A DNA stretch of 64,000 nucleotides from Tethya wilhelma. Lineage: Eukaryota > Porifera > Demospongiae > Tethyida > Tethyidae. The notes beneath the pieces were generated by a model. That model did not search any database and was not told the origin of the DNA. It worked only from the letters and a program-made list of their open reading frames with translations. Made by a program: the position numbers and the translations under genes. Below, one piece after another: positions 26,276 through 55,949 of this stretch. Numbering within the stretch: the stretch's first letter is position 1; each line of letters starts with the position of its first letter. The stretch spans positions 6,298,231 through 6,362,230 of the forward strand of contig CAXIPT010000006.1 in assembly GCA_964030475.1 (NCBI GenBank), given 5' to 3'.

Positions 26276-26545
26276 TTACTGTGTGTGNAACAGAGCAGCC
26301 CCCGATTGTATCCACTGCACCTTGCTACCGGGAGTTCCACTGGGCACGTCCAAACAAGCCACCAGCTTGTCTCTATTAGGACTATAGTAGATCGGCAAGG
26401 ATATGCAATCAGCCTCGGAGTAGGGGGGTGGAGTCTCTTTGGTTACCCAGGCAACAGTGCAAGGAGGCATGGTTGCAACTGAGGATGAGTCCTGCTTGTT
26501 TTCAAGCAACCTAGTACCATCAAAGGAACAGCCCTCAAGCTGCAG
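26276..26545 (-). pseudogene. orphan last exon of dynein-2 heavy chain (DYNC2H1-like)
   Basis: After a ttgtag acceptor this exon reads GGLQLEGCSFDGTRL, then SSSVATMPPCTVAWV, PPPYSEADCISLPIYYS, LDVPSGTPGSKVQWIQSGAA and a stop at 26278-26276. The order G-G-L-x-L-x-G-C-S-F-D-G ... M-P-P-C ... ISLPIY ... VQWIQSGAAL is that of the extreme C terminus of cytoplasmic dynein 2 heavy chain, the motor for retrograde intraflagellar transport. The full gene needs many kb of upstream exons on this strand, and none were recognised before the + strand gene begins at 27051. This is therefore most likely a duplicated 3' fragment. One N at 26288 lies in the penultimate codons. Confidence 0.65.
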
Positions 26546-27305
26546 ACCACCAATCTACAAGATATGATCAAGGGCCTGTAAACTAATATTATGTCCTTGG
26601 TANCAGTCGAACCGCACGCGTACGCGGAAACGCTCCTACGTTGAGATTTAATTGCAAATGAATTTATTCATAAGGTCAAGTACAGTTAATTCGCGATTAT
26701 GAAGTATGCAACGCATTGTTTTTATTTCTTCCACAGATTCTTGCTTTGCTGTTCCAAACTTGGTATGCAAATTGTACATTAAATAATCTAACTTTTAACA
26801 AAGTTTAGTGTCCAGAGATGGGATTTTATGCTCATGGCAATCACCAACAGACTGAAGATAGGAAACTTTAACCCCCAAGTTAAAGCTTTGGACATTTCTG
26901 TTTTAAAACCGCCAAATCGTCATTTTTGCGCATGCACATATGGAATACGTGTATTGCTGCGTGCTCAAACGCCAAAATAAAATCCGCCAATCATGAAATT
27001 TTGGACAATCCGCCAAATTTTATACCCGCCAATATTTTGTGCTATACGGTATGCTGTATTTATTATGTTTGGCTATAATAAGTAGTTAAAAATTCATTTC
27101 ACTGCATAATTATGTCATAATTATAGTTGTTTACACACATACTTTGATCTAGATCCTATTCCTGACTTCTGAAAGATGTTCAGGTATGAACATATTGCAG
27201 TTGTGTATGTGGTACATATATACTTAGCCTCTAGTATCTATGGTGTGTGTTAGGTATAGTTATTAGTTAAGCCTCGTTGCAGATTTTTTTCCCCCCTCTC
27301 CTCAG
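26546..27305. other. intergenic with MITE and candidate first exon
   Basis: Has an N at 26603 and a palindromic element at about 26880-27050 of the cgccaaatttt family (gctttggacatttctgtttt; ccgccaatattttgtgctat). Its end lies next to the candidate start codon of the following gene. No promoter motif I would trust. Confidence 0.45.
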
Positions 27306-29836
27306 GTCAGACTATTCCTGTGCTCACTTCAACTCTTAACTTCACTGATGGCAATAACAGGACTGGTTGTTTGAATAGCAGAGTAGTCTTCAATTGCGTA
27401 GGATATGGTACCAATATTCGCATTGTCAGTCCACCACTTGTACCTGAAACAGACCCGATTTTATTTTTTAATGATGACGATAATGGTACTCAAGCATTTC
27501 GTGGTTCAAATTCAGAGGCAGTCTCTATCCTTGAGAAGAATATCCCTGATGGAAGTGGAAACTCTGACTTTACTGTAACTCTATCTCTGCCACTTAATTC
27601 GAATCCCTTAGGACCAGCAGTTACTGAGTGTCATGTACCGCAAGGATCGGATGTGAATATGTTCACTGTTATAGGTATACATAGCTGTATATAATATACT
27701 ACCGTATAGCGGGAAATTTTCGTGAGGGAAAAATTTCGTTCCTTTCATTCCAGACAGCATGAAAACGAAAATTTTGCCCACGAAAATCTGAAATTTTTAA
27801 AACGTGGCCGCGGGGTCATGGGTCCAGAACGAAAATAAGACCACGAAAACTTGTTTTCAAGGCCTGAAACGAAATTTTAACCGCACGAAAATTTCCCGCT
27901 ATACGGTATTAATTGTGTGATGTCTTTGTATAGCTGTATTGTACTCATGCATAGTGGTTTTCTCTTTATGTAAAGATATACCTCCTCGAGTCCCCACGGA
28001 TAGACTCAATGCCGATTCTACCAAGATATCTTGGGAACGACAAGAAGAAGCAACAAATTATGAGATTCGAACTAATACGACCCCCACATCTGTGCAGACA
28101 ACAAGTGCAACTAGTTTGACTCTGAGTGTAGGACCAGGCAGTTATAAAGTACAAGTTATAAGCAATAACACCTGTGGACTGAGTAATGCTTCTGTGATAG
28201 ATGTGACAGTACTAAATGCAACAGGTTTGTTGTAGCTTCATTTCCAGGCCATGATCCTCAGCATTAAATAAGCTTCCCCAGCTTTAAAAATTAAACTGCA
28301 TGGGAATTAAGGCCTGCAAATGACGCTATAGGTTTATGGTATTATAATTATGTTATAACACTCTAATGTTAGTTACAATGTATTTTGATAATGTAGTAGG
28401 TCAAATGAATCTGATTCATTCACCATCAAAAGCCAAAAAAAATAAATCTACATCTATAACTACAATTGCTTAACAAATTCATCCTTGTCCTTACCCATTC
28501 ATTGCCCAATATTATAATACATTGCATTAATTTTAACTATAGCCGCAATACATATTAACTATCCTAGGTGGCTAACTGCATGGCACTGTCACTGCTTACT
28601 AGCTTATTTGTACTGGATCTTCTTTTATACACATGCATATTTATCTCAAATTCCTAACAATTTTTTCTTTCAGATCGTGTGCGTGAGGTACGTCGTGAGC
28701 AAGTGGCTGGGCTCACAGCTGGTTTGGTAGTGTCTATTTTCGTCAGCGGTATAGTGATAACTATAATCATACTGATTGCAGCTTTGTTCTACTTTAAACA
28801 AAAGGTAATTTTTTCATGATTGGTGTGTTGTTATTATTACGTGTATGAGAACACATAATGTGACCTCTGAATCCCAGGCTCCCTCTATAGCTCCATAAAT
28901 GAAGTGCATAGAAGTACTAGAGGGAGGCTGGTATCTAAAATCAATTGTTTGCAAATTTGTGGGCACAGCGTTTAGAAAAAATGACTTCAAACACTTGATT
29001 CTGTGCCTAGTAACGGTATTCCCGATCAGTAAACGCAGGGGAAAAGTTAGTTTTCTTGGGGAGACCATTCTCATGAAGGGATGGCTATTTACCTATATCT
29101 AAATAATTTTTGTGGCACAAAATTTAAAGTTCATGAAAAGCCTCTCTTTGCTGGTAACACACCAGAACATTCCTGCCATGTCAAGTTCAATTGTTGGTTT
29201 ACACATAGTGAAGTGGTTTACATTACTACAATGTGGTGTGGTGAAGTGGCTTGTGACAATGACTGCATGTATTGCTACCCACATAGACACAATACAAAAT
29301 GAAGGCACCAAAGTGCATAACCCTTGGTGCTGCGACGAATATGCACGTAAAATTTGGAGTTTTTAATGTCATTGTGATGTGAAAATTTTATGCATTACTG
29401 TTTGTGTATTAGTATATTGTACATATTATCGATTTGAAATAGTGCATGCATCAGTAGCTAAGCATCTACTATCTTTGCTATGGGGCTCGCTCAGGCTCAC
29501 CCCCCAAAATATAACTGGGTGTGGCCTCGAAGTATAAAGCTCTGCTCACTGTCAGGGAGGCTGCAAAGCTTCAGATTTCAGAAACCACAGGCTTTTGTTG
29601 CTTTGTAAGGATCTCAGGCCCATTACATATCAGTATATACGTAGCTAAACTTGTACTACTTATGCTACGAGCTCGAGGCTCGCTCAGGATCGCCATTCAT
29701 GCTCGCATGGGTGTGGCCTCCTCAGATCTCAGGAACTACAGGCTTTTACTGAATTCTTTGTGTAGATAATCTCAACTGTTTTACCTTGGTATGCCGCTTT
29801 TGAAGACTGGAGCTTGCGTTCTTGAGATATAGTTGG

Positions 29837-29874
<38 letters not shown>

Positions 29875-32800
29875 GACAAAACGACTACCGTAACCCTTGC
29901 TGTGCATGTGCACCAAGGGTTAATAAATATGATCTTACAAAGTTAAGCCATTTAACTTGCTCTGAGGCTCACTCTGACAGATTACAAACTACATGCAAGG
30001 CCTAAAACTGACAGATTTTTTTCCTGAGTACTCATGATTATATTTTTGTTTACATGAATGGTAGATATTATGCATGAAGGACCAATGAAAATGAAGTAGT
30101 CATGTGCCAAAATTGAGATATTCTTTGTTCCTTTACTTTCAGCAGCACTGCCCATTCCTACACTCATTGATTTTTTTTGACTACTTGTAGGGTTAATTTT
30201 GATGTATTTTTTTTCATTTCTACATGTGCTTCATAACAGCGTGCAGTAGCTGAAGCAAAGGTGGGTGTGCCCAATTTTTTTTTTATACACAAGCTGTTCA
30301 AAACAATCAGCCCTACTTTTTGTGTTTTTTTCCCCCCATTCTACATGTGTTTCATGACAGGATCAACAAGCTAAAGCAGAGGTGGGTGTACCTTGGACAC
30401 AATATTGCATAGGCTGTTCAAAACAATCTTTTGATGTTCTTTTTTATTTATATATGTATGTGCTTCATAACAGCGTGCCGCAGCTGAAGCAGAGGTAGGT
30501 GTGAATTATGCTGTTCAAAACAATCAGTACTTTTTTTTCCTTTTTTCATTTACTTTACACTAATTCTACAAGCTGTTTATAACAATCAGCCCTGCAGTGT
30601 TAATTTTGATGTTCTTATTTCATTTCCTCATGTACTTTGTGACAGGATAAATATAAGAAAGAAATGGTGGGTGTGTTTTATATAAGCTGTTCAAAATAAT
30701 AAGCCATGCATGCTCAATAAATTTTAATTTTTTATTTCATTTCTACTTATGCTTCATGACAGCGTGCAGCAGCTGAAACAAAGGTGGGTATGCTTTAGAT
30801 AAGCTGTTCAAAATTATCAACCCTACCTTTTTTTTTATTTCTACATGTGCCTCATGACAGTCTCAATACGAGAAAGAAAAGGTGGGTGTTCTTTTCACAC
30901 AAGCACAATCAGGCCTACTTTCTGATGCTTTTTTCTTCTTCTTTCATTTCTATATGTGCTTCATGACAGCGTGCAGCAGCTGAAGCAAAGGTGGGTGTCC
31001 TACAAGTGGTTCGAAATAATCAGTCCTACACAGAGTTAATTTTTGCTGCTCTCTTTTATTTCTACATGTGCCTCATGACAGGCTCAATATGAGAAAGAAA
31101 GGGTGAGTGTTCTTTACACACAAGCACAATCAGGCCTATTTTCTGTTGCTTTTTTTTTTAATTTCTGCATGTGCTTCGTTACAGCGTGCTGCAGCAGCTG
31201 AAGCAAAGGTGGGTGTCCTATATACAAGTGGTTCAAAGTAATCAGTCCTACACAGAGTTAATTTTTGCTGTTCTTTTTTATTTCTACATGTGTCATGACA
31301 GGCTCAATATGAGAAAGAAAGGGTGGGTGTTCTTTACACACAAGCACAATCAGGCCTATTTTCTGATGCTTTTTTTTTCATTTCTGCATGTGCTTCGTTA
31401 CAGCGTGCTGTAGCAGCTGATGCAAAGGTGGGTGTCCTACAAGTGGTTCAAAATAATCAGTCCTACACTGAGTTAATTTTTACTGTTCTGTTTTATTTCT
31501 ACATGTGCCTCATGACAGGCTCAATATGAGAAAGAAAAGGTGGGTGTTCCGTTTACACACAAGCACAATCAGGCCTACTTTCTGATGCTTTTTCTTTTTC
31601 TTTCAGCGTGCAGCAGCTGATGCAAAGGTGGGTGTCCTACAAGTGGCTCAAAATAATCAGCCCTATACAGAGTTAATTTTTGCTGTTCTTTCTACATGTG
31701 CCTCATGACAGGCTCAATATGAGAAAGAAAAGGTGGGTGTTCTTTACACACAAGCACAATCAGGCCTACTTTCTGATGCTTTTTGTTTTTCTTTCATTTC
31801 TACATGTGCCTCATGACAGGCTCAATATGAGAAAGAAAAGGTGGGTCAAGGTTCTTTACACACAAGCACAATCAGGCCTACTTTCTGATGCTTTTTTGTT
31901 TTTCTTTCATTTCTACATGTGCTTTGTGACAGCGTGCTGCAGCAGCTGAAGCAAAGGTGGGTGTCCTACAAGTGGTTCAGAATAATCAGCCCTATACAGA
32001 GTTAATTTTTGCTATTCTTTCTACTTGTGCCTCATGACAGGCTCAATATGAGAAAGAAAAGGTGGGTGTTTTTTGCACACAAGCACAATCAGGCCTACTT
32101 TCTGATGCTTTTTGTTTTTCTTTCATTTCTACATGTGCCTCATGACAGGCTAAATATATGAGGGGTGGGTGTTCTTTACACACAAGCACAATCAGGCCTA
32201 CTTTCTGATGTTTTTTTTCTTTTTCTTTCATTTCTACATGTGCTTTGTGACAGCGTGCTGCAGCAGCTGAAGCAAAGGTGGGTGTCCTACAAGTGGTTCA
32301 AAATAATCAGCCCTATACAGAGTTAATTTTTGCTGTTCTTTCTACATGTGCCTCATGACAGGCTCAATATGAGAAAGAAAAGGTGGGTGTTCTTTACACA
32401 CAAGCACAACCAGGCCTACTTTCTGATGCTTTTTTCTTCTTCTTTCATTTCTATATATATATATGTGCTTCATGACAGCGTACAGCAGCTGAAGCAAAGG
32501 TGGGTGTCCTACAAGTGGTTCGAAATAATCAGTCCTACACAGAGTTAATTTTTGCTGCTCTCTTTTATTTCTACATGTGCTTCATGACAGGCTAAATATG
32601 AGAAAGAAAAGGTGGGTGTTATTATACACGAGCAATCAGGCCTATTTTCTGATGCTTTTTTTCTTCTTTCACTTCTACATGTGCTTCATGACAGGCTCAA
32701 CATGAGAAAGAAAAGGTCTGCTTTACAGACAATCTGTTTATAGACAATCAGCCATATACTTTTGATGTTCATTTTTACATGTGTTTCATGACAGTCTCGA

Positions 32801-35800
32801 CGAGCTGAAGTGGAGGTGGGTTTACTTTAAACACAATTATATTAAACCTCTTCAACTACCGCTGCCCTACTTTTCCCCCTTTCATTTCTGCATGTGTTCT
32901 GACAGTGTGTAGCAGCTGAAACAAAGGTAGGGTGTACTTTAGACACAATTTTACAAGCTTTAATCAGCTCTGATTTTTTTAAATTTCTATATATATACAT
33001 GTGCTTCATGACAGGCTCTATATGAGAAAGAAAAGGTGGGTACTCTTCATACACACAAGCTGTAAAAACAATTAGCCATATACTTTTAATGTTTGTTTTC
33101 ATTACATTTGCCTCATGGCAGTGTCAACGAGCTGAACTAGAGGTGGGTGTACTTTAAATACATGCAATTATACAAGCTGTTCAAAACAATAATTATAAGC
33201 TCTACTTATGATATTCTTTTATCATTTCTACATGTACTTCATTCTTGACAGGCTCAAGTAAAAATATTGGAGGTGGGTGAGCTTTACAGTGCCACATAAT
33301 TGCAAGCTGTTTAAATATTCTCCCCTAATGAGTTTATCTTGGTATTCATTTTTATTTCTATTATGTGCTTCATGACAGGCTAGCGCTAAGGAATCAGAAG
33401 AAAATGTGGGTGTGCTGAATTTGTACAACCTCTCTGTTGTGTAATTTAATGTAGCTAATGCATGCCTTTGTAAGACATGTAACTACTGTGAATGGAGAAA
33501 TATTGGTGGTATATTAAATTTGGTGATTTGGAAAGTCGGCACAGAAATTGGTAAACTAAACCCACTATTTAAATAAAATCAGTGATTACTAGAGCAGGTA
33601 GGAGTAAATTACCAAATTAAATGCCTGCTAATATTTTTTGTTTTAGTAGCTACATTTGTGTATGTGAATAATCATAATAATACCATATGGCACAAAATAT
33701 TGGTGGGATTAGGCAGATTGTCAAAAATTCATGATCTGCAGATTTTATTTTGTATGGTGGTAGCACACGTAGCAATATGTGTATTTTATATGTGCTGCAT
33801 GAAAATGACTTGTGTTGGTGGATTTAATATTGTCAATCCTTACCAAAACCACCAATCCGGCAAATTTTTGTGCTATACATGTATGTACTGTAGACTTACA
33901 AGTACATAATATTGTAGTATTGCAATGGATTGACTGTCCTATTGACAGTACAAATTTTCAAGTTTATACGTAGGAAGATTACTAAGTTGGTAAGATCTTA
34001 CAAAAATGTTTTGCCTGGGTATCTGAGGGCTGGGAGGGCTAAGCATGTCTGAAGGCCTATATAGAACACACTTTCTAATTCCTAACTGACAATAAACCAA
34101 TTCAACTTTGATTGTAGCGTATGAAGTAACTTGTTTTCATCCAATTGGCCAAACTGCATATACCTTTACACTCTTTATCTGTCTAACTCTCAAGAGCTAT
34201 AGACAGCTTTGAAATGCACTCTGATAATTGAATTATATACTGTTAATGTATAGCTCTTGCTATACTCATGCCCATACAGGGCTGAGGCTTCTCCCTTGTG
34301 AATATTTCTGTTGAAAATAGTAAGGAGAGAACCTGGTATCAAATTATCAATTTCATTCTGTCCTGCTCATGGTATATAGCTCCCAGGAAAACTTTGACCA
34401 CATACAAATGCTTCAAAAATGGCTATGTCATATACTTTGATATTTGGACCATGGCAAGCTTTCCCTCCTTGCCTTATTTTTGAAGGAGAGGATTCACAAG
34501 GGAGAAGCCTGGGAACAAGGCTAGTTTGCAGAATACAAAGGCTGCTATACAGAATCACAATTAAGCACAAGTATATTATCTTGAACTGTCATTTATAATA
34601 ATATGTAGTCTTTAGTTATAATACATGTATAGGCACTTTAGCTTGCCTTCTGCACAGACAGAGAAAGGGTATAGGATAGCTCAAGACTGAATCACTTTTG
34701 GTGAACCTCCATGATATTATATGCACACAGGCACATCATGCAATTATAGAGGAATCAAATAACTTTCAATATGATATTTTTTTTAATAACAGACAAAAAG
34801 GTATGTAAGCTTTCTGATTACTGAAGCTGTGGAAGGCAGCTCAGAATCTATGAAGGATGAGCCAGTTGTGAAGGAAGGGAAATTTGATAGTGCACCACCT
34901 CACACAAAGGTAAAATAATGATAATATCGCCATCATGACACAGTCACTGAAAGGGGCCCACATGCAACAGTTTATTTGCTCATTCCATAAATTCATCACT
35001 TTAATTTCTCCCCTATACATAGATAGCTGTAAACCATTTTTTTTCTTTAAAATATTTGGTTGCACAAAGCAAACAGGGAAGACATAAAATAGCACGAAGG
35101 CTAATGACAAGTATACCTACCTGATGTGATTAAAATATAGAGTACAGAAATGAAATGAAAAAAAATGAAACTGACCCAGATGAAATAAAAAACAAAGGCT
35201 AAAAACAAAAATAAGTAATTACAGTAGGGTAAGGGATGAGAAATGATTGTGTAGGCCATGGCCAAGGTGTGACTTAGGTGTCACATAACAGTTAATATAG
35301 TGTAAATGAAATGCCGTATTAATAGCAGGAAGTTTTCATGTATATGGTGGAAATTTTGGTGCAAGGGAGCTCAATCGATTTTACGTGGCGAACTTTAATT
35401 TTAGCTAACGAAACACTGAAAGTGCATTACATCACACAGCAGAATTAGTATAGTAGCTACGTGTATATATATATGCCTTCTTTTTGTTTTTCTTTTACTA
35501 AAGTAGATTTGACAAAGCTTTTCATGTCCTGAAGCTAAGCCCTTAGGTTGTTAAAGTTCACCAAATTTCAATTGAGCTCCCGGACAATCAAGCTAACTGT
35601 GCTGAAAGCCTTTTTGCATTAATAGTGAAGCATCTGGCAGTGTAAAAAAACTATGGGAAGGGCTAATGCACTACGATATCACTGTGCAACTAGACCTTTT
35701 TTTTTTGTAGCCAGGCAACCAAGCTTTCAAAAGCAATGCTATTACTTTTAAAAGTAATAGCATTGCTTCTGAAAGCTAAAACTGAAAACTGGCTATATAT

Positions 35801-36565
35801 GTAGATGCAGGGGTACTTAGGCTAAGTTTAGCCTAAGTACCCCTGCATCTACTTTTATAGCCAGTTTTAAGCTTATTTCGTGAAGGGCTGTGGAGAAGAC
35901 ACCATTCTAAACCTTTGTATTGGGATTGCACTAGCATGCATTCAAATATTCACAAGTAGTAAAAATTTCAAAAAAAAAATAAGCAGTGTATATAGGAATG
36001 GGCAGTGCTATAAAAAGTATTGGAACAAGGCATGGTATCAATTTCGGCACATGACTACTTCATTTTCATTTTTGATCCCTCATAGCTATATAAATTTGTT
36101 GTAAATGGTTCAAAGAATGATCTGTACTTGACTAGCTGCATGCCAATCTTATCATTAATTTTGGCTAAAAAGTAGAATAAAGTACAGCAGGCAGGATTAG
36201 ATTACTGACCTCACGGTCAGTAATCTAATCAGACTCTTGGTCAGTAATCTAATCAGACTCTTGGTCAGTAATCTAATCAGACTTGGGCACAAAAAATGAA
36301 GTAGTCAAGTGCCGAAATTGATACCATTCCTTGTTCCAATACTTTTTATAGCACTGCCCATTCCTACACTGCTTATTTTTTTTTTTTTTTGAAATTTTTA
36401 CTACTTGTTCATTCAGTATATTAACTATATTTCTCTGTTTATTTATAGCACCAAACTTTAGCAGATGGGATAACATTGTACAGCACACCTGCTGGGAGAC
36501 TTTCCCTAGAGTTTGACAAACAAGAGTTACTGAATTCAAAATGGGTTAAAAAGTTGAAGAAGTGA
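27051..36565 (+). CDS. Ig-FN3-TM receptor with micro-exon-encoded helical tail
   Basis: Ig-like exon 27306-27674 (369 nt), FN3 exon 27976-28224 (249 nt) and TM exon 28674-28804 form a phase-1 chain. The ectodomain has TGCLNSRVVFNCVG and AVTECHV cysteines and N-glycosylation sites. The TM exon encodes VREVRREQVAGLTAGLVV, then FVSGIVITIIILIAALFYF and KQK, and leaves in phase 0. It continues into 29 tandem phase-0 micro-exons (30240-33405), exon 34793-34909 (117 nt; RYVSFLITEAVEG, SMKDEPVVKEGKFD) and last exon 36449-36565 (ADGITLYSTPAGRLSLEF, ending WVKKLKK and TGA). A possible first exon at 27051-27081 (MLYLLCLAII, phase 1, donor gtagtt) would give a short signal peptide; this start is uncertain. 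The tail has no ITAM or Death domain. It should be a type I receptor with a long cytoplasmic alpha-helix; ligand and function are unknown. Ectodomain is nearest the damaged minus gene at 21603-23132. Confidence 0.8.
27700..27908. mobile_element. MITE, ccgtatagc family
   Basis: Palindrome TACCGTATAGCGGGAAATT ... AATTTCCCGCTATACGGTA lying 25 bp after the donor of the Ig exon, in the intron before the FN3 exon. Same family as 6552, 13403 and 13975. Confidence 0.85.
28805..30239. other. intron between TM exon and micro-exon array
   Basis: Contains a hairpin at about 28875-28945 (ccaggctccctctat / agagggaggctgg), a region sharing gacacaatacaaaatg with other repeats at 29285-29300, a (CA)n tract at 29838-29870 followed by aaaacgactaccgtaaccct (shared with 51030 and, inverted, 58155), and half of an aagtagtcatgtgcc element at 30090-30190 just before the first micro-exon. 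Confidence 0.55.
30240..33405 (+). CDS. tandem array of 29 phase-0 micro-exons, one heptad each
   Basis: Each micro-exon lies between ...tgacag and gtgggt. Exons: 30240-30260 RAVAEAK; 30361-30381 DQQAKAE; 30474-30494 RAAAEAE; 30646-30666 DKYKKEM; 30763-30783 RAAAETK; 30861-30881 SQYEKEK; 30970-30990 RAAAEAK; 31082-31102 AQYEKER; 31185-31208 RAAAAEAK; 31302-31322 AQYEKER; 31404-31427 RAVAADAK; 31519-31539 AQYEKEK; 31607-31627 RAAADAK; 31712-31732 AQYEKEK; 31820-31840 AQYEKEK; 31933-31956 RAAAAEAK; 32041-32061 AQYEKEK; 32149-32164 decayed; 32254-32277 RAAAAEAK; 32362-32382 AQYEKEK; 32479-32499 RTAAEAK; 32591-32611 AKYEKEK; 32695-32715 AQHEKEK; 32795-32815 SRRAEVE; 32906-32926 CVAAETK; 33015-33035 ALYEKEK; 33122-33142 CQRAELE; 33252-33272 AQVKILE; 33379-33405 ASAKESEEN. 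Introns run 67-151 nt, mostly 80-95. Without the decayed unit the array gives 202 residues of Ala/Glu/Lys/Arg-rich helix (coiled coil or single alpha-helix). Two unit types alternate, with matching intron types, so the array grew by duplicating a ~210-bp dimer. Confidence 0.9.
32149..32164 (+). other. decayed 16-nt micro-exon (possible poison exon)
   Basis: Both splice signals are kept (catgacag before, gtgggt after), but the unit is 16 nt instead of 21, having lost bases from the gagaaagaaaag end. Including it would shift frame and give TGA inside the next micro-exon (32254-32277). It must be skipped, or its inclusion ends the protein early. Confidence 0.7.
33406..34792. repeat. intron with MITEs
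   Basis: Positions about 33495-33650 and 33685-33885 are diverged copies of the atattggtgg / ccgccaaat family. A palindrome lies at about 34283-34523 (gaggcttctcccttgtgaat and its inverse agcctgggaacaaggcta end). No exon seen. Confidence 0.55.
34910..36448. repeat. last intron, with hairpins and a MITE
   Basis: Positions 35723-35778 form a hairpin (aaaagcaatgctattacttt and inverse) and 35785-35868 form a longer near-perfect one (arms around gtagatgcaggggtacttag, loop of about two bases). Positions 35952-36410 are a full copy of the palindromic element with ends acaagtagtaaaaatttc and gaaatttttactacttgt. Inside it gactcttggtcagtaatctaat is repeated about three times. Confidence 0.7.
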
Positions 36566-37134: not shown

Positions 37135-39437
37135 ATGTCTGCCTTTCGTCCAATCAGTATACTATGTTGCCAGTGTTGGAGAGTGTGGGTAGCAAATCTA
37201 CCTCTCTTGGTAGTGTGGATCAAATTCTCAAGTAAGCCTACACTGTGTCATCATTTTCTTATGCTATAAATATTATAGATAAACTTTTATAGCTATAATT
37301 ACCATGAACTGTGGTGTAGTCAGTATTTGTTTCACACTACCATAAAATTTATAATAGTATAATAATAATAATTATTATTATCTATAGATATAAACACACT
37401 ACTAATAATATTATGCAGATGCTACCTCGACATTATTCCCAGTGATAGCCTGTCCTGGTGACACAGTGAGTGTCACATGTGATACAGCTCCCACTGACTT
37501 CTTGAGATGGACTATCAGCTACCAGGGTGGTCCTAGTCTGAGCAGGACAGTGCTTCCATCACAGATTGGGATGGCACTCACAATCAGCAATGACCCTGGG
37601 TTAGGGTTCCAGGTTACTTCTAGTGGTAGTGACAGTATGATAACATCCTCAGTGTTGACATTCTCTGCTAATGTTACTTTGAATGGAGCTACTGTAGAGT
37701 GCAGAGCAGCAGAGACAGACACCGTTGTATTACAGATAAGAAGCGAGTTCACTATCCATTTTTTCCCCACTGTTTAATACTAAGTTGCGAAACTTTTTCA
37801 CAGATTCTCCTCCAGCCACTCCTGATACCATTACAACTGATTCCAATGTACAGTTCACTAGGGATGGAGCAGCAGTGACCATTGGGTGGACTCCTGTCAT
37901 TAGTGCTGATAATTACACTGTTACTGTGGATCCACCAATTGACTCAGGGTCAGAGGTCATCACCACAAACAGTACAACACTGATGGTATCCTACAATACC
38001 ATCTACACAGTCAGTGTGTTGGCTAGCAACTGTATTGGTGACAGTGACAGCAATACCATCACTATCAGGATAGGTACTGAGGAATTCTTCCACCATACCT
38101 CATGGGGCATTTTTATTTTTTTTTTTTTATTTTTTTTTTTTTGTTCCTGACTGTTAATTGAAACTTGCTGCATTATTACCTCCCTACAGCTGGTTGTAAT
38201 CCCCTCCTGCCCCTGGCTAATGGAGTCATTAATGACTATCCCAGTGGAGCAGTGGGTGCTGTGTTGTCCTTCCAGTGCAATGAAGACTACCTCCCAACAT
38301 CAGACCCACCAATGGCCACCTGTCAGGAGAGTGGCTCTTGGACTCCAACACCAGCATGTAGAGAGACTGGAAGTAAGAAGTAGCCTCATAAACCAGGCCT
38401 TCCACATTATAGCCTGCAGGGGAAGGCCTGGTTCATGAGGCTATGTAAGAACTTAAGAAGTATAGATTAGAATAATATTTCAATTAAGGAATCTGTATAG
38501 AAGTAGTTCCTCCATCCAGGTTGTCTTCCACCATCTCCTGCTACTGATGTTGCCATAGAGAACTTCACCAGTATCACTGAAGGTTCAGTGATCTTCTTCC
38601 AGTGTGAGGAAGGTCTCATTCCAGAGAGGAGAGAGATGGCAGTGTGTGGGAGAGATGGAAGGTGGAACCCTGATCCAGCGAACCATCACTGTGGCAACCT
38701 AACATCAGGTCTGTTTCAGTCGCAGTGAATTTATCTATCTAAAAACTTTTAGTGTCAAATTTTATTCCAGTTGACTGTGGTACCCCCCAGCCTCCCACTG
38801 GTGGTGATATCAACAGCTACTCCAGTACTATAGAGAGAGCACAGATCACATTCCAGTGTAATGACGACCCAGCCAATGTGATGACATCAGTGTGTTTCAG
38901 TACTGGAGTATGGGAACCAGACCCTTCAACGACTGAGTGTCAAGAAACACCCACAAGAAGTCCAAATGGCCAACCTTTTGGTGGTATATTAATATCATCT
39001 GTGAATAGTTAACATTATCTTATGTCGACCCATTGTTTACTCAAATGTTAGTATAAAGATTTGCATATTATTTATTGGTACTTTAGGTCTAGGTTTGGGA
39101 GCAATAGGTGGTATGGTTGGAGCTGCTATCAGCATATTAATAATAGTAATTGTTTCTCCTGTCATCATTGTGGTGGTGTTAAAACGACGAAGTAAGTGAA
39201 AATTTCTCTCTTTTTGATGTAAATTAAGATCTCTGGTTCCAATTTCAGGTTCGAGTAAACGTGACAGGTAAGTAATTACACAGTGTTAATGTCTATTATA
39301 TTTTATGTAACTTGTGTTTCCTAGCCATGTGCGTGTTGAAATGCATTCAACTAGTGGTACTGCTCCTCCAGAGGTATGTTGTACATTCTAAAGGCTGTTC
39401 AGTCCCCCCTCCCCTACCACACACACACACACACACN

Positions 39438-39476
<39 letters not shown>

Positions 39477-40801
39477 GTAACCTTAATGGTGAATATAGCA
39501 AACTCCAACACCCCGACAATGAGGGATACAGTGTCCTCCAACACCCGGGTTCCCATGGAAACAAGGTATATGACACAAGTACTCACTAGATACTCCCACT
39601 ATAATAATCTCCCACTTTTGGTGGTTTACTCTACTTTAGTACAAGTTCTTTCTCATTCTCCTTTGTTGCCTATATAGTGTCCTTTAAATTTATGATCTCT
39701 TCTCTATTTGTTTAGTCTTCTAGCGATCACCCTGGTAGTCTAGTCTATGCTGAAGTGGGAAGCTTTGGCCCATCATCTAAGAAGAGAACTCAGGAAGAAT
39801 CTACTCAGTCTTCAAATCATGACGACAAGGTCCAGTACTCAACCCTAACACACAAGCCAGCACCTCCACCAGAAGTAGCAGGTAAGAGTTTGTTGAAGTG
39901 TCTGTCCACTTGCGTGATTGTGTATAAGATCTTCAGATTGGTGGTGTTATCTGCCGTGACACACAAGGCAAACATCTCCATTACCAGACCATGCATGGAT
40001 TGATAGTATGATGTAGTCAGTGTGTGAATCTTACTGTGCAAGAGGTTCAAATTTTGTTGTCACAGATACCACAATCTGTTCATAGTCTTATTGCAATTGT
40101 CCCACCTGTGTTTTGATGACATGGTGGTCAGTTCTATAAGCATAAGTAACCGTTAGCTACACGTGGAACATTTGGGAATAAAAATAAAAAAAGATAAAAA
40201 AAGCAATTATCATGTTATAGTCATTACAGCCTGTTTACAATTTATTATTTTGAGTGTTTTGTATACTCAAGATATTGAATCTTGATTCCTGGTATAATAT
40301 GATACACATATGAAATGTATTGTATACTCACATTGTAAATAATCCTCATTTTGAAAGCAGGGTGTACAATAATTGTGACATTGACTTCAGCGACTTGTTA
40401 TGCATTTTGCGTGTACCAGCACAATACCTCCTTTTTTGGTACATACTTTGAACAAGATTGTAATTCTATAACTATTTGGTAATGCATTTCTTTTTTTGTT
40501 TCTTTTTTTTTTTCTTTTTTCCCCTTAGCTGTGGATAAACTCCTAAACCTTGACAGTCTTATTATCCAATTGAAGGAAGTCAGCTCTCTATGGTACGAAT
40601 TGGGAGAGCAGCTTGGACTGACCAAAGAGACGCTAAAGAATATTGAGTCACAATGTATCACCATTGAAGAGAGAATAACAGAAATGTTTGCCTTTTTTCT
40701 CCGACAAGAGCCTCACCCTACCTGGACTCAAGTGGCTAAGGCTTTGAGGAACCTACACAAGAATATATTGGCTGAGAAATTAGAGAATTCCTATGTTACA
40801 G
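37135..40801 (+). CDS. ITAM/Death-domain receptor, Ig-FN3-CCP3-TM (copy C)
   Basis: Exons: 37135-37231 signal-like start (MSAFRPISILCCQCWRVW..., PLLVVWIKFS); 37419-37742 Ig (IACPGDTVSVTCDTA, ATVECRA; residues 33-140); 37804-38073 FN3 (141-230); 38190-38372, 38520-38708, 38771-38980 three CCPs, each with four Cys (231-424); 39087-39191 TM (ISILIIVIVSPVIIVVVL) and KRR stop-transfer; 39249-39267 and 39325-39373 linkers; 39476-39565 ITAM-like exon (YSKLQHPDNEGYSVL); 39716-39881 with LVYAEV, VQYSTL and KPAPPP; 40529-40801 Death domain ([21 protein letters not shown]). All phases join. The Ig exon donor is GC (gaa|gcgagt) where paralogues have GT. After the Death domain the end is unclear: read-through stops at 40858-40860, and a tiny exon 41674-41696 (IMPLRY, stop) is possible; no proline-rich exon was found. 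Probably a type I immune or adhesion receptor signalling through Syk/Src-type kinases and death-fold adaptors (inference). Confidence 0.85.
38383..38443. repeat. small palindromic MITE in intron
   Basis: tagcctcataaaccaggcct ... aggcctggttcatgaggcta, 61 bp, lying about 10 bp after the donor of the first CCP exon. Confidence 0.8.
39419..39475. repeat. (CA)n tract abutting the ITAM-exon acceptor
   Basis: About 57 bp of ca repeats with one N (39437) that runs directly into the cag acceptor of exon 39476-39565. In copy B the same position is a (CT)n tract. Confidence 0.95.
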
Positions 40802-42168
40802 GTAATACATTTGTGCAATTCTCTGTGTACTGTATATCTTATTCTCACCGTGAGTATTAACTGCTGAAGATAATTCTCATGACTTTGTTGACAGGCTCAA
40901 TCTCGTTATGTTTTGGGCAGTTATAATTGTGGGAAAAGAGCTGGGAATGAGACTACATGAACAAGTAACAATGTTTAATAGATTATTATTATAAACTCAG
41001 CTGATGTACCCTGGTGTACAACCACCTGTACCCTGGCTTGCTCTATACCTCTTATGTAGGGGATTTACCTTCTTGCATGTGTGAATGGCCCTGCCTCCTT
41101 TTTGATGTCTTGGTTCATGTCATTGTGGTTTCACTTCCACGTACTCTCACACACATTGTACACAAACACACGCACGCACGCACACACACACATGCACACA
41201 CACACNGCTCAGTCTGTTGAGCATTTAACATTTACTTAGTGCTTTTAGCACCTCACTATAATGAAGTTTTGCATGAGCTAGACATTCATGAAGCAGTATT
41301 TTACAGTACTTAAGAAAAGCAAGTTAATGCTCCATTATACCTGGTAACAGTTGCTATGGAAGTATGATTTTTTGTGGGGGGTCTATCTGCCCAGTCCATC
41401 AAGCTTTTAACATTTTTTTCCCCAGTTTAGTATCCCAAGATAATGAAGTTTTGCATGAGGGAGACATTTACGAGACAGCATTTACAACAGTACAGTAAAA
41501 GTACAGTGAAAGTACAGTAAAAGCAGTGTATAGTGTCATATAATGTGCCATATACTCACTTATGGTTGTTTAATGTTTCATAGCAATGCTGTATGCATGA
41601 TTTAAGATGTGCTGTCTGCTACTATAGAGGTGTTGTGTACTACAATGATGCTAGTAATATTATTTGTGTTTAGGTATCATGCCACTGAGGTACTAACTAT
41701 GTGGATCATCTCCGGGCTGCCAGCCGCTGTAAATTCCCCTGAAACTGACTGTGTCTTTGCCACTCTCGGTGTACACAAGGAGTGATACTCTAACAGTTAA
41801 TGATCTCTGTTCCAAGCTAATGACATGTGGTGTACCTCATCCATGGCATGTAACTCAGTTCTCATCGACCACTGACAAGGCTTTGTTTTTGCTTTGTGAC
41901 AGAAAGTGCACATTGGCTGCCAACTCAGAACCAATCAAAAACCACTGTCTTCAATCATGCCATTCCGGACTTGAAGAAGTTTAATATCATTATGTGCATG
42001 CACACTGCGATGTGTTATACCCTGCTTGTACTTGAGGTTGAATTTTACATGTTTTTTTTTTTGTTTAAGCAACACTGAATAAATAGGATATTCAGAATGA
42101 TACATATAGCAGCTGCAATTACAAATGTTGCAATGTACAGTGGAACATTTATCACTTCCTGCAACAAC
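40802..42168. other. 3' flank of copy C
   Basis: Contains the candidate terminal mini-exon at 41674-41696, a (CA)n tract with an N near 41161-41206, two related ~150-bp segments at about 41210-41300 and 41390-41480 (gataatgaagttttgcatga), and AATAAA at about 42075. The region 41700-42060 is free of recognisable domains. Confidence 0.5.
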
Positions 42169-43039: not shown

Positions 43040-45577
43040 CAAAGCCAAATTTTTTTGCAATTCAAAATTCTCTTGAGAAGGACTTGCACTAATAACCTGG
43101 TCAAGAGTGCTTGATCCAGATCAACACAGTGGAACCATGAAGACTCTGTGTTTGCTGAACTGAATGTTCAACAGTCTCTTGAGTAGAGGAAATAACATCA
43201 TACACCAGATCCAGAGGAGAAGGGTTGAGGTCTTGAGGCTCATTAGATACAGTGAAACCACCAGACTTAGCATGAAGATCCTGTGCTTGTACAGTTGATT
43301 GTAATTTCCCGACTTGCAGTTCAACAGTCTCTTGTACTCTTGTAATTTTGTTATAAGACTGTTCCACCACAAATGAAGCCAATGATGAAACCAAACAGCA
43401 CACAGAGGACAGCAGAAGAGATGGCTACAATAACTCCAGTATACTTAGAGCACCTGCTGTTCATGTATGATATTAATTATGCTGGTGTTGGAGTCCAAGA
43501 GCCCCTCTCCTGACAGGTGGCCATTGGAGGGTCTGATGTTGGGAGGTAGTCTTCATTGCACTGGAAGGACAACACAGCACCCACTGCTCCACTGGGATAG
43601 TCATTAATGACTCCATTAGCCAGGGGCGGGAGGGGATTACAACCAGCTGTGGTGGGAGAAAATAAACTTGATGAGATTTCAATGGTCACATCAGTGAAAG
43701 TGGACAGTAAACAAAATTACTATACAGTACCTATTTTGACTGTCGTAGGTATGGTTCCACTGTCACCAATACAGTTGCTAGCCAACACACTGACTGTGTA
43801 GGTGATGTTGTATGATACCATTAGTGTTGTATTGGTGGTGGTGATATGACCTCTGACCCTGAGTCAATTGGTGTGTCCACATTAAAAGTGTAATTATCAC
43901 CAATAATGACAGCAGTCCACCCAATGTTTATTGCTGCTCCTGTTCTAGTAAGCTAGCTGTACACTAGGACCAGTTGTATGGAGGAGAACCTATATTTACC
44001 AGGAACTGTTTGAAACACACTATAACTTCCAGATGTACACAACTTACTCACTTCATATCTGCACTATAACGGTGTCTCTTATGGGGTGCCGTTTGTGTCA
44101 AAATATGAAAAATAAATAGTCATTGAAAATGTATTGGTTTTTAGTAAATACCTAACTACTAAAATCACTGGAATAAATACTAAAGTTACATACTATATAT
44201 ATACTGGTATTTACAAATACCAGCATCTCAGTGTACTCCACATACTGGTATTTACAAACAACAGTATCTCAGTGTACTCCACATACTGGTATTTACAAAT
44301 ACCAGCATCACAGTGTACTCCACATACTGGTATTTACAAATACCAGCATCACAGTGTACTCCACATACTGGTATTTACAAATACCAGTATCTAGGCTCAC
44401 TCCATATATTGGTATCTATATAGGCTCATTGCACATACTGGTATTTGCAAAAACCAATATCTCAGCCTCACTCCGCAGGCACACACTGGTATTTACAAAT
44501 AACTGCATCTTAGTTTATTCTGAAGTACAATCGTACAATGTTCGTCTTGAGTTCAAAGTTCAGCACGTAGTGCATGACTTTAAGAGTGGCACATCACGTG
44601 CGATCGCTTTTAGAGACCGACCACAGAGCTGAGGTGAGGAGCTAGGTGGTACAGTGTACAACACAAGTGCGCGTTTGCTGAGCTGGCAAGCAGGTGCACA
44701 TGATCAACTCTCATTGTGAAGTATTGCGGCGCGGTGGCTGGTCACATGATTGGAATGTAATTAAAGGACTTGCCTACTCATGTATATCCTCTGAAACACT
44801 AAAAAGAGGGAGTGGCCTGGGTACGAGGCTATGGACGACCAGAGTTCAAGTTCCTCGAATGAACTTTGAACCATGCCAAGCTCTTTACTTACAAATTGCA
44901 CTCATAGACCCAGATGGTCCAAGTGCCGACTTCGGATATGATATATATCTGGTATTTGTAAATACCAGTATATGGAGTGAGCCTAGATACTGGTATTTGT
45001 AAATACCAGGCCAGCGTGTGGAGTGCACTGAAATGCTGGTATTTGTAAATACCAGTATATGGAGCCTGAGCCTATAGATACTGTTATTTGTAAATACCAT
45101 GCAGTATGTGGAGTGCACTGAGATACTGGTATTTGTAAATACCAGTATGTGGAATGAGCCTAGATACTGGTATTTGTAAATACCAGTATGTGGAATGAGC
45201 CTAGATACTGGTATTTGTAAATACCAGTATGCTATGTAAATTTAGTAATTATTCCAGTGATTTTAGTAGTCAGATATTTACTAAAAACCAATACATTTTC
45301 AATGACTATTAATTTTATTTTTCATATTTTGACACAAACGGCACCCCATAGTCTCTCTCTGCAGCCACACACTCTACTGTAGCTCCATTCAAAATAGCAC
45401 TAGCAGAGAATGTCACTGATCAGGTACCAGGGTGGTTCTATATAGTCTGAGCAGATCTGTGCTTCCATCACTGATTAGGATGACACTCACAATCTGGTAG
45501 TCACGATAGTCCATCTCAATATGTCAGTGCCCTGTGGGAGCTGTGTCACATGTGACCCTCACTGTGCAGCATCTAAA
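43040..45577 (-). pseudogene. Ig-FN3-CCP-TM receptor pseudogene, NEPQD tail (copy D)
   Basis: On the minus strand: Ig exon scraps at 45577-45351 and 44079-44040 separated by a foldback element; FN3 exon 43989-43731 (IGWTAVIIGDNYTF, YTVSVLASNCIGDSG) with a 2-nt insertion near 43850; CCP exon 43646-43480 (GCNPLPPLANGVINDY, SFQCNEDYLPTSDPP), cut before its last Cys; TM and tail about 43430-43040 (VIVAISSAVLCVLFGFIIGF), where an extra A makes a stop after GGTVL; then FTVSNEPQD, LVYDVISS and HGSTV. The Ig part also has a TGA for CGA near its donor and an internal ~75-bp inversion. Related to 23991-25556; clearly dead. Confidence 0.8.
44080..45350. mobile_element. 1271-bp foldback element with 6-bp target duplication
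   Basis: Ends TATGGGGTGCCGTTTGTGTC and GACACAAACGGCACCCCATA, ~110-bp terminal inverted repeats. Inside each arm is a tandem of a 41-bp unit containing the palindrome tggtatttacaaatacca: five to six units at 44200-44410 and about seven, inverted, at 44945-45230. The flanks repeat gtctct (44074-44079 and 45351-45356). It splits the Ig exon of pseudogene D. The centre (44520-44930) is unrelated sequence with no transposase. Confidence 0.9.
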
Positions 45578-49435: not shown

Positions 49436-51000
49436 GAAAGGTTTTATGCATACAAGTTCCTTTTTAGTTTCCTGACTCAATTAGCAGCTACACCAATGTT
49501 TTGCCAGCATGAGGTCACATGGAGGGGGAAATCCCAACACATGGAGGCACTTGTGACAGTCACACACACACCCACACACACACACTAACACACACTAACA
49601 CCTGCCAGCCTTCTCTACACGCACTTCACCTAGCTCCACGGAAATAGAAGCTAGCTAGGTAAAGTGAACGTAGACTGAAGGCAGAGTGAATGCAGAGAGG
49701 GGCTGGCTACTAGAGACCATACACTCACCAGTCACATACGAGTTCTCCAAACCCTCGGCCAGTGTAGTCTCACCCAAGGTCCTCAGAGCTTTGGCAATCT
49801 TGGCCCAGGTTGGTTGACGCTCCATACGGAGATAGAGGGCAAACATCTCCTCCCTCCGAGACTCAGTGGTGAGACACTGAGACTCTATTTCATTGAGTGT
49901 CTCCCTCTCCATACCCAGCTGCTCCCCCAGCTCATACCACAGGGAGCTGACTTCCTTCAACTGGACGATGAGGCTGTCAAGATCCATGAGTTTGTCAATA
50001 GCTGAAGAGAAGATACATATCAGGTTGAATTCACAACCAGACTGGCGTAAACACCTTCACTATAGTACATTCCCCTTTTCACTTGCTGAACAGTCAGTGA
50101 ACTAATGAAGAAAGATGTAAATTCACAACCAGAGACCCTCACTACAGTTCATTGCACATAGTGAGAGAAAGGGGCTGGCTATGTGGCTACAGTATTTCAC
50201 ATAAATGCAAGGAAGCTATTGTGTAGCTCTACACAATACTAGCTACCTTCCTACCTGAGTGTAAATCAAGGCACAGGAAGGTAAGGACAAAGTAAACGTA
50301 TATCAGTATGTGGACACATAAATCGTATAGGCTCAGTGCTATTATTTTAGTGTACGTATTCTGTTGGAAATTCTGTTCAATATTAACATATAAGAACTCA
50401 AGCTATGAGCTCATCCACTCACCAGAATACGTGGAAACATGTAAACTTATATTCTTTTATATATATATATATATTATATTGGACTACTCAACACACACAT
50501 AATCATACCAATTGCTATTATACAGAGAGAACCACATTGAATGAGCAACAGAACTAATAAAGGCACCGATGGTGCACAAGCCTTGGCGCACTCTGTCACG
50601 TGCAACTTGTGATTAGATAAGCAATGCTATGATTATCAGCAAACCTATGGGCTACCTGAATCATGTAATGACCATGCAGCTTAGCTAGCTGGAACTTAGC
50701 ATGTGGAAGTTCACTGGTAAACACACTGACAGCGGCTGAGCCAAGCACATCACATCCAGAGGCTAAGCGCCTGAAGTCCAACTGTATTTCTAGATAACGC
50801 ACACTACATGTGGAGGGTTATTGATGGGTGTGGTTTCAAAGGTAAGCGTTCAGAGAAGCACAAAAGCCTCGTATCTCAGAAATTACAGTGTCTTGCAAGA
50901 TTCTACACAACCATTTTCAAGATAATTTGATTCATGAACGTAAGTACCTTCGGTTTGGACAATATAGCTGCCATTCTTCACATTATCCCGTAACAGACAG

Positions 51001-51034
<34 letters not shown>

Positions 51035-51656
51035 CGACTACCGTAACCCTCTGCACATGATACTCACGCACCGAGGCTTAACTAGTACTGGTGGTGTACA
51101 CATTCACAGATGATGGCAAAATCCCACACACCAACAATAACAGATAACAAGAAACACACACACTGAGGCTGGAGTGGAGGATAAACCATCAACAACCACC
51201 ATAGACCCATTAACCTGTGATGACTAACAGAGGTCCCAAGTGTATGTAAGCTTTGCATTCCATGACTAATGGACACTAGTGCCTAGAGAAACAACCAATC
51301 AGATTGAATCACCCCAATAAGGAAACTAGTGTGGGGAGGGAAAGTAAAAAATAGTGGAAGTAGAACACAAATTCTGAGTATGGCCTGATTCTCAGGAATC
51401 ACCTAGATATATAGTGACCATGGAAAACTTTAACTAGCGAAAAATCTTTGTACATCTCTTTCAAAAGTGCCCAAATATAAGCCCCCATCAAACTGTTAAC
51501 CTAACTATTGTGAAAAAGCCTTGACTTGGTCACTGTGAAAGTAATCCCACATTTTACTACACACTCCAGAAAAGGTAAAGATATAGGGATAATTATACAC
51601 ACACAAGTTGTGCCATCTCTCTCTCTCTCACACACACACACGCGCACACGTGCACG

Positions 51657-51689
<33 letters not shown>

Positions 51690-51698
51690 GCACGCGCA

Positions 51699-51780
<82 letters not shown>

Positions 51781-52101
51781 CACACACACCTGCTACACCT
51801 GGTGGAGGTGCTGGCTTATGAGTCAATGCCGAATATTGGACTTTGTCATCAAGCTCTGAAGATGACTCAAATGCTTTCTTTGAATGCTTTGAGCGATCGA
51901 AGTTGCCTACATCAGCATAGACCAGACCACCAGGTTGAGTGGAGGAAGACTAGAGGGGAAAAATCACATAATTACTGGGTTCATATAGTATGACCCGTCA
52001 ACACTTTGTACCTTGTTTCCATAGGGACCAGGATGTTGTAGGACGCTGTATCCTGCACTATCGGGGTGTTCAAGCTTACTGTATTCACCATTGAGGGTAC
52101 C

Positions 52102-52146
<45 letters not shown>

Positions 52147-54153: not shown

Positions 54154-55949
54154 ACGTGATTCTTGGTTGTACTACTATAGGTCTACACAGTGCACTTGAA
54201 TTGAGAAGATGAACAGTCTCGCGTGGGCGGGTCGACTTTAGACCGCACAAATTTTAATGCCTAGGCCTGATTCCCATACTCAGATCATAGATAATATAGT
54301 AGTCTATATTATCTATGCTCAGATCTGCAGACCTTGCAGCTTGAGTGGTACGCCGGTTCTTTGCGCGGATTGACTACACTGTATTAGTTTACGGAGCCTG
54401 ATCTGCCACAGCCTAAAACTTTAATCATTGGTTGTACGAATTGTGTCATAGATATAAATTGTTGTGCTTGCAAAGTCATCTAGCTGCTACAGTTGCAAAA
54501 GAAGATTCATGGACAGATTTCTTGTCTTGGTAAGAGAAAAATACATGTATTAAATATTTTGAATTGTGAATATCTCCAAGGCGCGGCTCGTGCTAGTATG
54601 CTTGCACCCAGCAGTTGGGTTTGGGCGTCCTGGCTTGACCCAGCTAGCACGGTCTCAACATAAATTTGTATGCACCTGAGGCCAAGGAGGCATGAGGAGG
54701 CTACCTAGCTTTATCAAACCCTAAAGCTAATTGTTAGAACTTCATTTTTGTTTATTCGCATGTCCAGTGGCAGATCTAGGGGTGATCCAAGGTATTCATG
54801 GATCCCCCCTTTCAGCTGGGAGCTCATACAGTTACACAGCTGTACAGATCAAAAAGTTGTACCGAGGATCCCCCGTTTTCAAATACCGTAAACGTGGAAA
54901 TTAAATTTGGTGGTTTGGTGGTTTGGCGGTCGGCGCAAAAACCGCCAAATTAAATGCGTGTAAACTGTTTTTCGCTGTACAGATCAAAAAGTTGTACCGA
55001 GGATCCCCCGTTTTCAAATACCGTAAACGTGGAAATTAAATTTGGTGGTTTGGTGGTTTGGCGGTCGGCGCAAAAACCGCCAAATTAAATGCGTGTAAAC
55101 TGTTTTTCGCTCTATTGCAATAGACCTTATGCAATTGACGTCACAACTTAGAAACCGCGCATGCGTTGCTAACGCCGCCATTTTGAAGGGCAAATTTAGC
55201 ATGGAAGTACAGCAGCAATACAAGACAGTGACAGCTTGTTCGAAGAATTTATGAAGTAAAACCGTTGGGACAGTGAACTAACATACGCTCGATTACCTCC
55301 ACTCAGACAGCCCTAAAGACTTGCAAAGTGATCCTTGAGCAGCGGCAGCTAAAATAGCTAGCAGACGGTGACAAAAATAGCAGTTCTTTGCTCTGTATCA
55401 TAATCTTCGTGTCGTGGTTGGTATTGCTGCTTCCACGCTCTGGGCTAGCTATATTCTGTCTTGGTAGTTGTGAACTACCAAAGATGCCTAATCATACAAA
55501 ATGCACTATCAGTTCACTTGTAAAGCAACGATTTGTTTGCCTTCCGTATGTCAGCCATTATTTTTTTGCCCTTCAAAATGGCGGCAGTAGCAACGCATCC
55601 GGTGTTGCTATGAAAATTTTGACGTAAAATAACGTAATTGCATAAGGTCTATAGACCTTATACAGTAAGCTCATGAATATGCTAATCAGTACAAGCTAGT
55701 TATTTTAGATACGGAAGTAGAGAGATAATTTCTTGCGTCAATTTTTGCAAAGCAAATCAAACCGGATATGGGCGGTCATCTTACCGTTCTGTCAACAGAG
55801 AAGGGCCAGACATGAGAGTTTTCTCGAAAAGAAGCAACTGAACCGTCCAGGTCGCCGCAGTTTGCTGCCTGACAGCTGCCTAGGGCGCTTTGGAGAGCGC
55901 TTTTTAGCTCCATAAAACTTTTCGTATTCGAAGTAGAAAGAAAATCTCG
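54154..55949. repeat. shared upstream region of two head-to-head genes
   Basis: Lies between the minus-strand receptor and the + gene at 55950. Contains a hairpin at 54286-54320 (catagataatatagtag and inverse), a hAT-like end at 54770 (cagtggcagatctagggg), a perfect 135-bp tandem duplication (54841-55110) and a palindromic element at about 55120-55655 (atagaccttatgcaattgac ... aattgcataaggtctatag; arms with gccgccattttgaagggcaa). Promoters presumably lie at 54154-54500 and 55660-55949, without clear motifs. Confidence 0.65.
54841..55110. repeat. 135-bp perfect tandem duplication
   Basis: The block beginning tgtacagatcaaaaagttgt and ending gtgtaaactgtttttcgc occurs twice in a row at 54841 and 54976 with no difference seen. 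The unit includes the inverted pair tttggtggtttgg / ccgccaaattaaa. Confidence 0.95.

Follow-up and report, generated by a model that had tools for sequence, protein, structure and literature searches.

A tandem array of heptad-encoding micro-exons in the tail of a predicted receptor gene of the sponge Tethya wilhelma

In this study, we analysed a 64,000-nucleotide (nt) stretch of the genome of the demosponge Tethya wilhelma (GenBank assembly GCA_964030475.1, contig CAXIPT010000006.1, positions 6,298,231 to 6,362,230 of the forward strand; hereafter the window, to which all coordinates refer), in which a tandem array of 29 micro-exons lies within a predicted single-pass receptor gene. The array follows a transmembrane exon and precedes two C-terminal coding exons; with the 28 intact units included, 323 residues would be encoded from the membrane exon to the TGA stop. 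The predicted parts of the gene are as follows.

26699-26762, +, candidate first exon (tentative), signal-peptide-like start, phase 1 end; its ATG frame joins 27306 in phase
27306-27674, +, predicted extracellular exon, phase 1-1, without an assigned fold; open, AG/GT flanked; AlphaFold2 model with a predicted local distance difference test score (pLDDT) of 40
27976-28224, +, predicted extracellular beta-sandwich exon, possibly FN3/PKD-like (weak evidence), phase 1-1; seven strands, pLDDT 51
28674-28804, +, transmembrane exon, ...LIAALFYFKQK, phase 0 end
30240-33405, +, tandem array of 29 micro-exons (28 intact, phase 0, 202 residues)
30240-30260, +, micro-exon 1, RAVAEAK
30361-30381, +, micro-exon 2, DQQAKAE
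30474-30494, +, micro-exon 3, RAAAEAE
30646-30666, +, micro-exon 4, DKYKKEM
30763-30783, +, micro-exon 5, RAAAETK
30861-30881, +, micro-exon 6, SQYEKEK
30970-30990, +, micro-exon 7, RAAAEAK
31082-31102, +, micro-exon 8, AQYEKER
31185-31208, +, micro-exon 9, RAAAAEAK (24 nt)
31302-31322, +, micro-exon 10, AQYEKER
31404-31427, +, micro-exon 11, RAVAADAK (24 nt)
31519-31539, +, micro-exon 12, AQYEKEK
31607-31627, +, micro-exon 13, RAAADAK
31712-31732, +, micro-exon 14, AQYEKEK
31820-31840, +, micro-exon 15, AQYEKEK
31933-31956, +, micro-exon 16, RAAAAEAK (24 nt)
32041-32061, +, micro-exon 17, AQYEKEK
32149-32164, +, micro-exon 18, decayed (16 nt); inclusion would shift the frame, with a stop in the next unit
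32254-32277, +, micro-exon 19, RAAAAEAK (24 nt)
32362-32382, +, micro-exon 20, AQYEKEK
32479-32499, +, micro-exon 21, RTAAEAK
32591-32611, +, micro-exon 22, AKYEKEK
32695-32715, +, micro-exon 23, AQHEKEK, weak donor GTCTGC
32795-32815, +, micro-exon 24, SRRAEVE
32906-32926, +, micro-exon 25, CVAAETK
33015-33035, +, micro-exon 26, ALYEKEK
33122-33142, +, micro-exon 27, CQRAELE
33252-33272, +, micro-exon 28, AQVKILE
33379-33405, +, micro-exon 29, ASAKESEEN (27 nt)
34793-34909, +, penultimate coding exon, 39 residues, phase 0-0
36449-36565, +, last coding exon, 38 residues and TGA stop

The original prediction, made from the letters alone, was of 29 phase 0 micro-exons between near-identical splice sites, building a juxtamembrane tail of up to about 202 residues, and this description was borne out. 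All 29 units were found on the + strand, comprising 23 of 21 nt, four of 24 nt, one of 27 nt and one of 16 nt. The AG acceptor and GT donor dinucleotides are intact at every one; the acceptor hexamer is TGACAG at 23 of the 29 and the donor hexamer GTGGGT at 25, micro-exon 23 having the weak donor noted above, and 27 of the 29 combine a usual donor (GTAGGG counted as such) with an open, in-frame exon. The 28 introns are 67-151 nt long. All 28 intact units are in phase 0, contain no stop and join in frame to give exactly 202 residues; the transmembrane exon ends, and the exon at 34793 opens, in the same phase. As their lengths are all multiples of three, any of them can be skipped with the frame kept, as had been claimed, and by the phases even skipping the whole array (28804 to 34793) leaves the frame intact. 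Two parts of the prediction needed amendment. The array comes directly after the membrane exon in the order of exons, though separated from it by an intron of 1,435 nt; and the proposed unit types, R-A-A-A-E-A-K (R-type) and A-Q-Y-E-K-E-K (Q-type), describe the core but not several outer units (DQQAKAE, SRRAEVE, CQRAELE, AQVKILE and ASAKESEEN are of neither main type). No further unit was found in the flanking introns past the array's own edges.

Micro-exon 18 is 5 nt shorter than its sister units. It would have to be skipped, as its inclusion would bring in a stop five residues on, within the unit that follows, and cut the tail to 132 residues past the membrane exon. Ten of the 28 array introns are multiples of three. 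Of these, intron 10 (31323-31403) alone is open; each of the remaining nine closes with the acceptor's TGA in frame, and in six of them there is no other stop. Retained introns would thus usually terminate translation because the conserved TGACAG carries this TGA, and read-through of the kind described for the chicken gene BG1 was rejected for these stop-bearing introns.

The array is not due to chance. A scan for chains of candidate micro-exons (15-33 nt, multiples of three, pyrimidine-AG and GTRRGT, gaps of 40-200 nt) linked 26 of them at the array, fewer than 29 because the donor and length rules skip a few units, against at most two elsewhere on both strands of 214 kb (the window plus 150 kb from its two sides). 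The window outside the array, scanned separately, gave one on the + strand and two on the - strand; no chain longer than two appeared in 20 shuffled versions of the window, and the longest in 24 other genome loci (83 kb, some overlapping) was two. DNA searches of the 124.6-Mb genome found no second copy: one unit motif, with up to three mismatches allowed, occurs ten times, always in the array, and a 349-bp array stretch, in a search that ignores very common words, had 12 matches, every one inside the array.

The exons of the array change more slowly than its introns. Minimum spanning trees over 10 of the 13 R-type and 11 of the 14 Q-type units (units 2, 4, 24, 25, 27 and 28 were omitted as too diverged, and 18 and 29 are in neither count) gave 0.48 substitutions per site in exons versus 0.99 in intron bodies for R units (Poisson P 0.007) and 0.29 versus 1.10 for Q units (P 0.00003), so that core exons change two to four times more slowly; all P values for selection given here are rough, because the units are related by descent and such trees are crude. 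None of the 202 residues is glycine or proline, whereas 16% of amino-acid replacements under neutrality would introduce one of the two (P 3e-4 for the 46 changes). The splice dinucleotides are kept at all 29 units, where about seven changes would be expected under neutrality, by an aligner lenient with gaps. Two other exon/intron comparisons were set aside, a pairwise one dominated by young copies, which pointed the same way (exon and intron values of 0.064 and 0.147 for R, and of 0.059 and 0.079 for Q), and an alignment-based one, in which the gap-lenient aligner made even shuffled introns only 0.27 different.

Several observations weigh against reading the array as a selected, translated tail. 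Gap events in alignments of 10 R and 12 Q rows (two in exons, namely one whole codon and the 5-nt loss of unit 18, versus 20 intervals in introns, 15 of them not multiples of three) favour coding but are few. Only five silent changes stand beside 46 non-silent ones, where 24% silent would be expected (P 0.007 for so few), and classical purifying selection on single residues is therefore not demonstrated; splicing signals may keep silent sites from changing, and such a constraint through purine-rich enhancers would explain the deficit. That no stop occurs is in itself weak evidence of coding (3.1 would be expected, P 0.04), and in Q units the donor hexamers are more variable than the exons (0.67 versus 0.29). 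The array is real and coherent, and is very probably a gene tail.

The original prediction also held that the units build a juxtamembrane helix, and the composition of the joined tail agrees with this: besides lacking glycine and proline, it is 29% alanine and 49% charged (net +6), and its mean helix cost on the Pace-Scholtz scale is 0.268 versus 0.542 for translated introns. At i,i+4 spacing, 38 charge pairs are opposite and two alike, where residue shuffles give about 23 of each; permutations of columns that keep the repeats reached both values in 0.3% of 20,000 cases (singly, like pairs in 0.6%, opposite pairs in 8.5% and their difference in 2.1%). No hydrophobic stripe of heptad period (3.5) was found in the tail, whether or not alanine was counted. 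The 11 tyrosines would stand in perfect 3.5 register if all units were heptads, but the four eight-residue units (octads) break it (resultant 1.00 to 0.26). On a straight helix of 98-100 degrees per residue, the octads gather the tyrosines more towards one face, the resultant rising from 0.07 to 0.69 at 100 degrees. A tuned placing of the octads was rejected, since random choices of four positions are equally good (mean resultant 0.65 versus 0.69). Because the stripe is missing, the charges are ordered at i,i+4 and the octads break the register, the sequence more likely specifies a straight, charged, alanine-rich helix than a coiled coil. In a check on the joined tail that had been suggested with the prediction, the charged-helix pattern was thus present, while a coiled coil was unsupported over most of the length. 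Other features pull the opposite way: large hydrophobic residues without alanine show a weak peak at period 3.58 (reached in 1.7% of shuffles), the last 30 or so residues are richer in hydrophobics at a/d positions, and the tyrosine face depends on the angle assumed (resultants of 0.28 and 0.19 at 101-102 degrees). In addition, charged residues, asparagine and glutamine make up only 55% of the tail versus about 80% in typical single helices (PMC5812594), and alanine-rich designed heptads are reported to have dimerised or aggregated (PMC5347031).

How the array grew can be read in part from its internal likeness. Self-alignment gave offsets of about 108, 215, 434 and 730 bp, corresponding to roughly one, two, four and seven units. 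The nearest match of intron 7 is intron 21, at a difference of 1.3%, while introns 12, 15 and 18 resemble one another save for gaps. Central units and introns are the most alike and those at the edges the most diverged, which fits the expectation of unequal crossing-over. We infer that the units are spliced, that they form a helix in vivo on the cytoplasmic side, and that this helix acts as a spacer of tunable length. The array would have arisen as a pair of exons, one R-type and one Q-type, was duplicated again and again along with its introns. Splicing of the 28 intact units would give an alpha helix of up to 202 residues and about 30 nm, a straight arm holding the 77-residue C-terminal tail off the membrane, and unequal crossing-over or exon skipping could alter its length without damage, since every unit contributes two helical turns and keeps the frame. 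That the gene is a demosponge single-pass receptor in which a duplicated micro-exon array encodes such a spacer is the reading we favour, and we regard it as reasonably probable. A bolder version appears doubtful to us: a sponge recognition receptor serving as an adjustable molecular ruler, in which copy number and alternative splicing would set the distance from the membrane, 0 to about 30 nm, of a C-terminal signalling part and of tyrosines lined up on one face, differing among individuals or cell types, with a BG-type tail invented independently near the animal root.

Three other explanations were weighed. Two receptor tails might wind together along their heptads, as the tails of chicken BG proteins are thought to do, the array then setting the length of a dimer rod. 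The shared gene plan speaks for this coiled coil, as do the reported dimerisation of seven-residue alanine-rich repeats (PMC5347031) and an a/d occupancy of 0.5 in the last tail windows (about units 24-28). However, no pair of columns is hydrophobic, column 7 being charged in 22 of the 23 seven-residue units, whereas codons 4 and 7 of BG exons are mostly hydrophobic; and the power at period 3.5 in the tail, whose register the octads interrupt, is a tenth of that of tropomyosin (0.38 versus 3.96). We consider the coiled coil unlikely. It is also conceivable, but quite unlikely, that the array is a near-neutral expansion driven by splicing, in which purine-rich micro-exons with splicing enhancers of their own spread by unequal crossing-over and persist because a charged helix does no harm, however long, so that tail length is unselected. 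The shortage of silent changes (P 0.007) would suit such an origin, as would the likeness of central introns set against the divergence of outer ones and the purine-rich sequence of the units (GAGAAAGAAAAG), a putative enhancer; the avoidance of glycine and proline and the i,i+4 charge order are signals at the level of the protein and argue against it.

A further explanation, by which the array is a decayed or cryptic intronic repeat that seldom or never enters the mRNA, 28804 being joined to 34793, draws on the broken unit, the weak donor and the in-frame product of full skipping. Against it stand the 27 units that are open, in frame and provided with a usual donor, the conservation of every AG and GT and the slower change of exons than of introns, and we hold it to be highly improbable.

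The remainder of the gene and its surroundings were also examined. Exon 27976-28224 shows 30% identity with the FN3-like stretch of a neighbouring receptor-like gene (BLAST E 0.002), a Pfam PKD_6 match below the cut-off (E 0.0012) and, in Foldseek, best matches of its model to PKD (E 0.06) and FN3 (E 0.08), with none at 0.001; these lines agree in suggesting, weakly, an FN3/PKD-like beta sandwich. The name 'Ig-like' was rejected for exon 27306-27674, which had no Pfam match above the cut-off, a BLAST E of 65 against the neighbour and a model pLDDT of 40. No Pfam Ig match was found in the ectodomain, for which the structure models are of low confidence (pLDDT 51 and 40). Searched against the genome, the membrane exon, both ectodomain exons and both C-terminal exons gave only self-matches at strong scores; besides the gene's own exons, the ectodomain had just four matches (E 0.16-0.93), and their 3.2-kb loci contained no chain longer than two. 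The tail matched no Pfam family, and no PDB sequence at E 0.01.

Just upstream of the gene, near assembly Ns, an open stretch at 26276-26554 (-) looks receptor-ectodomain-like by eye. Two neighbouring receptor-like genes, at 37409-40860 (+) and 49655-54070 (-), contain Ig-like, FN3-like and CCP-like stretches and an exon for a Death domain (Pfam E 1.8e-8 in the former; both are among the Death-domain matches of the genome); the other domain names come from reading the open reading frames, Pfam giving only a weak PKD match for the 37409-40860 gene. The tail of that gene, at 39716-39883 (+), contains LVYAEV and VQYSTL, which fit the pattern of the immunoreceptor tyrosine-based inhibitory motif (ITIM); the 279-residue tail of the micro-exon gene has no match to this pattern. 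Death domains form a very large expansion in the genome, where 150 matches were scored of 591 candidates. Elsewhere in the window, at 54839-55111 and 44201-45231, a 135-bp segment is perfectly duplicated in tandem and a 41-bp unit forms two arrays, seemingly mutually inverted by eye. One of 20 peptidase-C1 loci inspected among 89 genome matches reads CGASYAF, with serine replacing the catalytic cysteine, the hallmark of silicatein; this silicatein-like gene makes it very probable that the host is a siliceous sponge.

The original prediction named schistosome micro-exon genes as the nearest precedent and knew of none in a sponge-like receptor with one heptad per exon. This claim of novelty does not stand, because the tails of the chicken BG receptors, members of the butyrophilin family in the B7 superfamily, already have this plan and its length polymorphism. 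BG genes have 21-nt exons (a few of 18 or 24 nt) after the transmembrane exon, with 13-38 heptad units, block duplications, copy-number length polymorphism and occasional skipping and read-through (PMC5938342, PMC4046983, PMC5043582). Both systems are thus membrane receptors with many 21-nt exons, each encoding one heptad, placed next after the transmembrane exon. They differ in phase, BG exons being in phase 1 with a split first codon (PMC5938342) whereas all 28 intact sponge units are in phase 0; in the hydrophobic codons 4 and 7 reported for BG, a stripe that the sponge units lack; and apparently in the ectodomain, one Ig-V domain in BG versus a possibly FN3/PKD-like exon and another without an assigned fold. 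The sponge gene also has two alternating unit types and no second copy found in the genome searches. Since phase, stripe, host and apparently the ectodomain differ, we do not file it as a BG gene, and by this comparison it is probably a convergent case. Mammalian butyrophilins likewise have cytoplasmic heptads past the membrane segment (PMC5938342, PMC4046983), but only a few, and typically a B30.2 domain, unlike the sponge tail with its lack of a Pfam match.

Schistosome micro-exon genes share symmetric exons of 6-36 bp and possible protein variation through skipping (PMC5825161), but there micro-exons make up about 80% of the coding region. In the sponge gene, the ectodomain, membrane and C-terminal exons are 117-369 nt long (the tentative first exon 64 nt), and the micro-exons supply 202 residues as near-identical repeats of two types, in the tail only. 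Among listings of literature on micro-exons with sponges, Amphimedon, tandem arrays and receptors, and judging from these listings, no such sponge gene is described. The heptad-exon plan is already known from chicken BG, and the sponge version is apparently a separate invention. In its protein chemistry the tail resembles single alpha-helix spacers such as those of myosin 6 and designed AEEEKKK heptads, which are charged, repeat every seven residues, pair opposite charges at i,i+4 and lack a hydrophobic seam (PMC5347031, PMC5812594); compared with these it is less charged, richer in alanine and encoded with one repeat per exon. If transcribed, the array would represent a second origin of a heptad-exon tail, this time in a lineage far removed from birds. 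With two independent cases, 21-nt phase-matched exons would seem a favoured means of building and resizing helical receptor tails, and the unexplained variation in BG tail length would become testable by comparison. Because its units have no hydrophobic stripe, the sponge form separates this gene plan from the coiled coil with which it is associated in chicken BG.

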